DNA of 64,000 nucleotides from Haloferax elongans ATCC BAA-1513 (GTDB lineage Archaea; Halobacteriota; Halobacteria; Halobacteriales; Haloferacaceae), in assembly GCF_000336755.1 (NCBI RefSeq), contig NZ_AOLK01000022.1:258748-322747 (forward strand). The letters are read 5' to 3'. The notes under the pieces were generated by a model, which ran no database searches, was not told the DNA's origin, and saw only the letters and a program-made list of their open reading frames with translations. A program made the translations under genes and the position numbers. Positions 30,223-33,382 of the stretch are shown here, one piece after another. Each line of letters begins with the position of its first letter. Position 1 is the stretch's first letter.

Positions 30223-31245
30223 ATGCCTAACGTGTTCACGACTCCCCCGCCGCTCGAACCGGGGAGTCGAATCGCCGTTGCCGCCCCCTCACGTCCAATC
30301 GACGAGTCCATGCTGGACCGCGCGTGCGACCGGTTGCGGGAGACGTTCGACCTCGAACCAGTCGTCTTCGAGTCGGCACACAAAGACTGGGAGTGGCTTC
30401 GAGACAATCCGCAGGCGCGCGCGGAAGAAATCATGAACGCGTTCGAGGACCCCACGATTCGGGGTATTATCGCAGTCACCGGCGGCGACGACCAGATTCG
30501 ACTGCTGAAGCACCTCGACCCGGACCGACTGACCGCGTCGCCGACACGGTTCTACGGCTACAGCGACAACGACAACCTTCGGCTGTTCCTTTGGAACCAC
30601 GGTATCGTGAGCTACGGTGCGACGCTTCACCCGACGCTTACCGTCGACCCGGCGATTCACCCCTACCTCGAACGCTACCTCCGGCGCGCGTTCTTCCAGT
30701 CGTCTCTCGGCGTCGTCGAACCGGCTCCCGAGTGGACCGACGAGTGGTTCGACTTCGACTCTGGAGAGTCGCGTGAGTGGCACGAAAACTCCGGCCGGAC
30801 GTGGCACGGTGAAAACCGCGTGACAGGCCGCCTCTGGGGCGGGTCGTTCGCCATCGTCAAGTGGCACCTCCAGACGAATCGCTACCTTCCGAACCCCACG
30901 GACCTCGACGGGACGGTTCTCGCGCTCGAAACGTCCGAGGACGTGCCCCTTCCCCGCGAGGTTCGGTACACCCTGCGAACCATGGGTGAACGCGGCCTTC
31001 TCGAACGGTTCGACGGCGTGATGATGGGCAGACCGCGGACGTTCTCACCTGACTTAGAGTGGGAGCCACCGGAAGACTACGGCGAGCAACTCCGAGAGGA
31101 GGTCCTGTCTGTCCTCGACGAGTACAACCCTGACGCGACCGCCGTCTTCGACGTCGAGTTCGGGCACGCCGACCCGAACGTCCCGCTTCCACTCGGCGCG
31201 AAGGCGACGCTCGACCCCACTGTCGGGCGAGTTCGGTTCGAGTAG
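30223..31245 (+). CDS. S66 family peptidase (LdcA/MccF-like)
   Basis: A 340-residue S66 serine peptidase. The nucleophile Ser lies in 'RFYGYSDNDNLRLFLWNHG', the Glu region in 'GRLWGGSFAIVKWHL...LALETSEDV', and the His in 'DVEFGHADPNVPLPLGAKATLDP'. Bacterial relatives cleave L,D-peptidoglycan peptides or microcin C conjugates. Haloarchaea have no peptidoglycan, so a detoxification (MccF-like) or other amide/ester-cleaving role is more likely. It is divergent from carB. Confidence 0.87.
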   Translation: MPNVFTTPPPLEPGSRIAVAAPSRPIDESMLDRACDRLRETFDLEPVVFESAHKDWEWLRDNPQARAEEIMNAFEDPTIRGIIAVTGGDDQIRLLKHLDPDRLTASPTRFYGYSDNDNLRLFLWNHGIVSYGATLHPTLTVDPAIHPYLERYLRRAFFQSSLGVVEPAPEWTDEWFDFDSGESREWHENSGRTWHGENRVTGRLWGGSFAIVKWHLQTNRYLPNPTDLDGTVLALETSEDVPLPREVRYTLRTMGERGLLERFDGVMMGRPRTFSPDLEWEPPEDYGEQLREEVLSVLDEYNPDATAVFDVEFGHADPNVPLPLGAKATLDPTVGRVRFE

Positions 31246-31341
31246 CCGTCACCGTTGTCGTCTCGTTTTCGGCGCGCTCTGCTGCCAGCGTTCTACTAGG
31301 CGTAAAAGCGTGAGCACGGCGTGTCATCAGCGTGCCATCAG

Positions 31342-31368
31342 AAAATCTATTACTTAGTGATATCACTA
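31342..31368 (+). promoter_or_regulatory. thiC promoter with perfect palindrome
   Basis: The perfect palindrome TAGTGATATCACTA (14 bases) at 31355-31368 lies 7-20 bases before the thiC ATG (31375). An AT-rich AAATCTAT box at about 31344-31351 is at leaderless distance from the ATG. A protein bound at the palindrome would block initiation. Thiamine-dependent control by a ThiN-type archaeal regulator (ThiR) is a reasonable guess, not shown by the sequence. No TPP riboswitch hairpin is evident. Confidence 0.55.
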
Positions 31369-31374
31369 GGTCAT

Positions 31375-32823
31375 ATGGCGCAGACACAGCTCCAACACGC
31401 ACGCGAGGGTACCATTACCCCGGCGATGGAACGAATCGCCGACCGCGAGAATCGAACACCGGAGTTCGTTCGCGAGCAGGTTGCATCCGGGCAGGCAGTC
31501 ATCCCGAGTAACCACAACCACGAGTCGCTGGACCCGATGATTATCGGCCGAGAGTTCTCCACGAAGGTCAACGCGAACATCGGGAACAGCGAAGAGACGA
31601 GTGATTTGAAAGGCGAACTCGAAAAACTCCACACGGCAGTCCACTACGGCGCTGACACGGTGATGGACCTCTCGACCGGGACGAACCTCGACGAGATTCG
31701 CGAGGCGAACGTGGCTCACTCGCCCGTGCCCGTCGGAACGGTCCCGATTTACGAGGCAGTCAAGCAAGCAGAGAGTCCGGAAGACATCACCCGCGACCTC
31801 CTCGTGGACGTCATCGAGAAGCAGGCCGAGCAGGGCGTCGATTACATGACGATTCACGCTGGCGTGCTGATGGAACACCTACCGCTCACAGACGGCCGAA
31901 AGACGGGCATCGTCTCACGCGGGGGGTCGATTCTCGCCCAGTGGATGGAAGAAAACAGCATGCAGAACCCACTGTACGTGGCGTTCGAGGAACTCTGTGA
32001 GATATTCGCCGAGCACGACGTGACCTTCTCGCTCGGCGACGGTCTCCGGCCCGGATGTGTCGCCGACGCGGGCGACGAAGCGCAGTACGCCGAACTGGAG
32101 ACACTTGGCGAACTCACTCGCACTGCGTGGGACCACGGCGTACAGGTCATGGTCGAAGGCCCCGGCCACGTCCCGATGGACCAGGTCGCGGAGAACGTCG
32201 AGAAACAGCAGGAAGTCTGTGACGGTGCGCCCTTCTACGTCCTCGGCCCGCTCGTCACCGACGTCGCGCCCGGCTACGACCACATCACGAGCGCCATCGG
32301 CGCGACCGAGGCGGGACGCGCCGGTGCCGCGATGCTGTGTTACGTCACGCCGAAAGAACACCTCGGGCTACCCGAGAAGGAAGACGTTCGAGAAGGGTTG
32401 GCCGCGTATCGAATCGCCGCCCACGCCGCCGACGTTGCGAACGACCTGCCCGGCGCGCGCGACTGGGACGACGCGCTCTCGGAAGCGCGCTATCAGTTCG
32501 ACTGGCGGCGACAGTTCGACCTCGCGCTCGACCCCGAGCGCGCCCAGAGTTATCACGACCAGACGCTCCCCGGCGACAACTACAAAGAAGCGCGCTTCTG
32601 CTCGATGTGCGGCGTCGAGTTCTGTTCGATGCGAATCGACCAGGACGCGCGCGACGCGGACGGCGAGATGACTGCCATCGAAGACGAGACCGACCTGAGC
32701 GAGTCGCTCGCGGCGGAGACGAACCTCCCGCCGGTCGGCACGCACGACACGAGTCGCGTCCCCGAGAAAATCGAAATCGACGGCGTCACCTTCACGCCGG
32801 AGTCGTCACACGCGGACGACTAA
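31375..32823 (+). CDS. thiC: Phosphomethylpyrimidine synthase ThiC
   Basis: A 482-residue ThiC, a radical SAM enzyme that rearranges aminoimidazole ribotide into the thiamine pyrimidine (HMP-P). The 4Fe-4S motif CSMCGVEFC (Cys-x2-Cys-x4-Cys) is near the C-terminus, and the barrel motifs '[19 protein letters not shown]', '[11 protein letters not shown]' and '[16 protein letters not shown]' are all present. Start is the ATG at 31375, directly after the palindromic candidate operator. It stands alone; thiE and thiD lie elsewhere. Confidence 0.96.
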
Positions 32824-32851
32824 GCCGGCACTCCCTGCTGGCGGTTCGTCG

Positions 32852-33382
32852 TTAGGCGTACGGCCCGGGGTCAAGGTCGCGCTGGGCGCGGTACTGCTCG
32901 ACGAACTCGCTCACGTCGAACTGGAGCATCTTCTCTTCGAACTCGGTGATTGCGCCGTCGTCGGACGCGTGGCTCACGGCGTGTTCCATGAGTTCGACGA
33001 CCAGTTCGACGATAATCTCGTGGAGTCGGCGAGAGTCGAAGTCAGTCACCCAGACGATGCCGGCCCCGACTTCGCCGTCGTCAGACACGTCCTCGGAGAC
33101 GACCGCCTTGGGGAACTCTTCGAGGACGATGCCCATGAGGTGGGCCGTGCCGAACTCCGGCATGTCCTCGCTCGTCGTTTCGATGGTCCCTTGCAGCACC
33201 TCGACGAGGAATTCGGGGAGGAATCGGTCGGCAGGGTGGACGTCCATGACGACGGCGTGGGCGTCGCCACAGGGACAGTCGAACTCTCGCTTCCCGAGGT
33301 CGAGTTCACGGACGCGTTTCTGTTCGCCGCAGGGGAGGTCGAGGACCGCCCCGCGTCCGCCGGGGACGCGCGGTTCAGACAT
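32852..33382 (-). CDS. DUF5815-like haloarchaeal protein with CxC
   Basis: A 176-residue acidic protein with Cys residues in 'PCGEQKRVRELDL' and 'FDCPCGDAHAV', a possible zinc-binding ribbon of three to four Cys. It is otherwise alpha/beta and ends 'EQYRAQRDLDPGPYA'. It resembles the DUF5815 family of haloarchaea; I am moderately sure of this. Function is unknown. It is convergent with thiC, 28 bases from its stop. Confidence 0.6.
   Translation of the reverse strand: MSEPRVPGGRGAVLDLPCGEQKRVRELDLGKREFDCPCGDAHAVVMDVHPADRFLPEFLVEVLQGTIETTSEDMPEFGTAHLMGIVLEEFPKAVVSEDVSDDGEVGAGIVWVTDFDSRRLHEIIVELVVELMEHAVSHASDDGAITEFEEKMLQFDVSEFVEQYRAQRDLDPGPYA

Follow-up and report, generated by a model that had tools for sequence, protein, structure and literature searches.

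The thiC gene of this stretch is preceded by a perfect palindrome, raising the question of whether the repeat marks a protein operator through which thiamine controls the gene, as an earlier note on this DNA had proposed, or whether it reflects an RNA element or chance. The features at the locus are listed below; the window is the whole 64-kb stretch of DNA that was analysed.

31342-31349, plus strand: AT-rich, TATA-like promoter box AAAATCTA, abutting the 24-bp element
31350-31373, plus strand: full 24-bp candidate operator TTACTTAGTGATATCACTAGGTCA, which fits the pattern TNACnnnGTnnTAnnACnnnGTnA
31355-31368, no strand: perfect 14-base palindrome TAGTGATATCACTA, 0 mismatches, the core of the candidate operator
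31375-32823, plus strand: thiC, phosphomethylpyrimidine synthase, 482 amino acids (PF01964, E 2.5e-189)

The palindrome at thiC is the core of a larger element

The identity of thiC is secure, as TIGR00190 and NF009895 both exceeded their cut-offs. The palindrome claimed at 31355-31368 was matched exactly, and its placement between an AT-rich box and the thiC ATG (31375) was likewise borne out, with the box directly upstream and 6 nt separating TAGTGATATCACTA from the ATG. At the position of the box, many aligned relatives carry TTTATA or TTTATT. The extent of the site required revision: the 14-mer is real, but it forms only the core of a 24-bp element that fills the gap between the box and thiC and ends 1 nt before the ATG.

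Perfection of the palindrome is by itself poor evidence. The window contains 12 perfect 14-base palindromes versus 9.0 +/- 2.8 in 60 dinucleotide shuffles, a near-chance level; the shuffle probability of finding one within the 129 nt upstream of thiC was 0.007. Even when up to 3 mismatches are allowed, TAGTGATATCACTA has no other match in the window; the expected number is 0.35. Across the whole genome, six sites lie within 2 mismatches of the 14-mer, compared with none for the reversed pattern: one at thiC, one at thi4, three in long open frames and one in another region. Because four of the six lie away from thiC and thi4, the 14-mer alone is unspecific, and we dropped it as a genome-wide probe. 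Nor is exact palindromy kept among relatives; H. larsenii, for example, has TAGTGATATTACTA. The thiC palindrome is therefore significant because it is conserved, and not because it is palindromic.

The element is conserved at thiC and thi4 across Halobacteria

We took 28 named thiC genes of haloarchaea and aligned their upstream regions with that of the window (n=29). The earlier note had given absence from the thiC promoters of close relatives as one observation that would refute an operator; we found one ungapped 24-column motif in the window and in all 28 of these promoters, at 30.2 bits, as compared to 9.9-10.7 bits in ten shuffled control sets. Columns T1, A3, T9, T12, A13 and A16 are invariant among the 29 promoters, and C17 and T22 (28/29 each) and G8 (26/29) are nearly so. 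A matrix trained on these thiC elements found 31350-31373 as the sole site above 12 bits in the window, scoring 31.8 on the plus strand and 32.7 on the minus strand, with a runner-up of 11.4.

The dyad centre of the motif coincides with the middle of the 14-base palindrome, and the strongest second centre of symmetry falls in the left ACnnnGT unit. In some thiC and thi4 promoters (L011, L170, L188 and L204) a second, weaker operator match lies 13 nt off. Given this second centre and these weaker matches, ACnnnGT units spaced 13 nt apart may be the true recognition unit.

Among 145 Halobacteria genomes, thiC is present in 92. The element was found at 92 of 92 thiC genes, whose scores all exceed the 99th percentile of a background of 1313 windows, each 191 nt long; these genes were scored in batches of 30 and 62, and at least 9 of them (that of the window and 8 others) had also served for training. 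In the second batch, 60 of the 62 loci scored above every background window. The lowest of these 62 (G021) reached 7.1, at a site 61 nt from the start of the match. Two thiC matches are irregular as genes: one (G132:C1:1260493-1261920) contains a single TAA, which may reflect gene disruption, a sequencing error or a match that reads past the end of the gene, and another (G009:C2:138307-139751) falls into two parts that lie in different frames.

The gene thi4 is present in 131 of the 145 genomes, and we examined 68 of its promoters. With the matrix built from thiC alone, the best site of the locus fell in the promoter in 30 of 30 cases, the lowest of which scored 8.2-8.7. Of 38 further thi4 promoters, 37 exceeded the 99th percentile, the one miss being G136 at 1.9 bits.

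The element is restricted to thiamine genes

For counting sites, the exact 24-mer pattern was too strict (30 of the 145 genomes matched versus 6 with a reversed control pattern), and we instead used a sequence-only model built from the 29 thiC elements and run on the same 145 genomes. At E<=0.1, this model returned 63 rows corresponding to 61 sites: 44 at thiC, 10 at thi4, 5 at tenA, each directly upstream of the tenA gene, and 2 at a gene for an Nramp-like transporter. No site at this threshold lay elsewhere in the 145 genomes. The recurrence that the earlier note proposed to look for in haloarchaeal promoters was thus found at thiC, thi4 and tenA; of its two further candidates, thi4 carries the element and thiM does not appear to, as no site was seen there. 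We conclude that the 24-bp element is common to haloarchaeal thiamine-gene promoters and is restricted to thiamine genes.

When the threshold was set at E<=3 for the 15 genomes of the genus Haloferax, 28 sites were found: 11 at thiC, 11 at thi4, 4 at Nramp-like genes and 2 away from thiamine genes (G148, E 0.84; G076, E 0.68). The genome studied here has three model sites, located at thiC, at the start of thi4 (G000:C12:16935) and at the Nramp-like gene (G000:C26:60572). A weaker site (L249:2129), of 19.7 bits, precedes tenA by 100 nt in the same cluster as the Nramp-like gene. The predicted regulon of this genome thus probably includes tenA and the Nramp-like transporter.

We also searched 16 genomes picked either because they lack thi4 (G100 among them has thiC) or because they are Haloferax in which the genus-wide search had shown no operator (G147 and G151). 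In 12 of the 16, no model site was found at E<=5. In two genomes without thiC and thi4 (G003 and G012), a single site lies upstream of a gene for a thiamine-binding protein; in G003 this assignment rests on PF01910, and the gene that follows codes for a solute-binding protein. The remaining sites were found in G001 and in G100, the latter with no recognisable thiamine gene alongside. The G003 and G012 sites fit a scenario in which the regulator has been turned to the control of uptake in auxotrophs.

A ThiN-domain protein is the probable regulator

The earlier note had suggested looking for co-occurrence with a ThiN-domain regulator (ThiR), and such a protein is indeed present. The genome encodes a single ThiN-domain protein, of 301 amino acids, with an HTH_3 domain at residues 25-59 and a ThiN domain at residues 139-298. 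Its gene (L011:2116-3021) overlaps the tail of the preceding frame (L011:1475-2119); about 1.5 kb separates the end of the gene from thi4, and the thi4 operator is 2.4 kb away. All 145 Halobacteria genomes contain a relative (weakest best match E 1.7e-59), and the stretch SQSAVSKYAHG is invariant in 30 of 30 homologues. Residues 154-300 align to the ThiN-domain thiamine phosphate synthases of PDB entries 2php (MJ0236; E 1.1e-17) and 2pb9 (E 2.5e-10); unlike these synthases, ThiR has an HTH domain and, by Pfam scan, no ThiD domain. Many haloarchaea have further ThiR matches, some of them full-length at about 40% identity (for example, G102:C2:459439-460314). The resulting ambiguity between paralogues as the candidate binder applies to those haloarchaea and not to the present genome, with its single ThiN protein.

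The recurrence at thiC, thi4 and tenA, together with a protein of the ThiR type, supports the proposal of a protein operator for thiamine control. We consider it very likely that the 14-mer forms the core of an operator for ThiR and that binding of ThiR, dependent on thiamine phosphate, represses thiC. According to this model, ThiR would sense thiamine phosphate and, when thiamine is plentiful, would occupy the 24-bp element that separates the TATA-like box from the start of thiC. Bound ThiR would block assembly of the initiation complex, and thiC, thi4 and probably tenA and the Nramp-like transporter gene would consequently be on only when thiamine is scarce. For ThiR as the binder, thiamine phosphate as the effector and repression as the outcome, we draw on published work: ThiR and a thiamine regulon have reportedly been described, with Haloferax volcanii as an experimental case, and Hwang et al. 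(2017, J Bacteriol e00810-16) and Rodionov et al. (2017, J Bacteriol e00743-16) reportedly found that ThiR represses thi4 and thiC with thiamine and binds with thiamine phosphate. Both of these studies of ThiR appear among the references of PMC12029414. A thiamine-gene operator of this kind is thus already known.

The present case resembles the published archaeal regulon in its HTH and ThiN regulator, its palindromic operator, its thiC and thi4 targets, its haloarchaeal setting and its consistency with leaderless transcripts. The likeness is one of kind and covers these features.

Could a different thiamine-responsive DNA-binding protein occupy the element? ThiR occurs in genomes with and without the element, and since it is found in all 145 genomes and thiC in 92, its presence alone does not tie it to the site. 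However, ThiR is the lone ThiN protein here, possesses an HTH and is encoded near thi4, and the published work reportedly identifies it as repressing thiC and thi4 in Haloferax volcanii. We therefore regard another binder as improbable.

Less probable still is an RNA element, either a TPP riboswitch or a hairpin attenuator, in a thiC leader. The TPP riboswitch (THI element, RF00059) controls thiC in many bacteria, and the perfect palindrome could form a hairpin if it were transcribed. The element described here resembles that riboswitch in its link to thiC control, but it is a DNA element at the promoter, and a search of 30900-33000 against 4227 Rfam families gave no match at E<=1. Furthermore, the arms are fixed letters in the 29 promoters and the central columns lack stem covariation: columns 10 and 15 are complementary in 10% of promoters, below the 24% expected from the columns, and columns 11 and 14 in 41%, below the expected 47%. 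The Rfam result and the absent covariation led us to reject RNA explanations. The element is also probably untranscribed, because only 1 nt separates its end from the ATG and leaderless transcripts are common in Hfx. volcanii, where they account for 72% of protein-coding transcripts (PMC4983044). The positions of the box and the element fit a leaderless thiC transcript that begins with the ATG or right beside it. A chance palindrome or generic promoter feature, which the near-chance number of palindromes in the window would allow, has a similarly negligible probability and is refuted by the conservation at all 92 thiC genes and by the location of 61 of 61 genome-wide sites at thiamine-linked genes.

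A candidate target in the Nramp family

Sequence alone was sufficient to confirm one putative protein operator common to haloarchaeal thiamine genes. It also provides a usable 24-bp pattern, whose main use is as a guide to the Nramp-like transporter.

G000:C26:60572-60594 (L249:3073): operator match upstream of the Nramp-family gene P0004 (L249:3133-4482), adjoining a tenA-like gene

P0004 matches the Pfam Nramp domain (PF01566, E 5.1e-70) and has relatives in 64 of the 145 genomes. Its operator lies upstream of a TATA-like stretch, a geometry unlike that of thiC. We examined 30 of the 64 loci, and in 29 the locus had its best match to the operator in the 215-nt upstream window; only 11 of these loci reach 15 bits.

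In canonical Nramp metal transporters, metal binding involves DPGN of TM1 and Met-Pro-His of TM6. P0004 shares the Pfam domain with canonical Nramp metal transporters but is without these metal-site residues. A literature search for Nramp together with ThiR, thiamine transport or HMP returned nothing relevant. We tentatively suggest, as a possibility somewhat short of even, that the reach of the ThiR operator includes an Nramp-fold carrier of thiamine or a precursor rather than of metal, which, if true, would represent a branch of the Nramp family with organic substrates. All 30 homologues examined have GPAT or GPAS at the TM1 position of DPGN, which is present in the solved Nramp aligned with them, and TM6 of the homologues reads AVH in place of Met-Pro-His.
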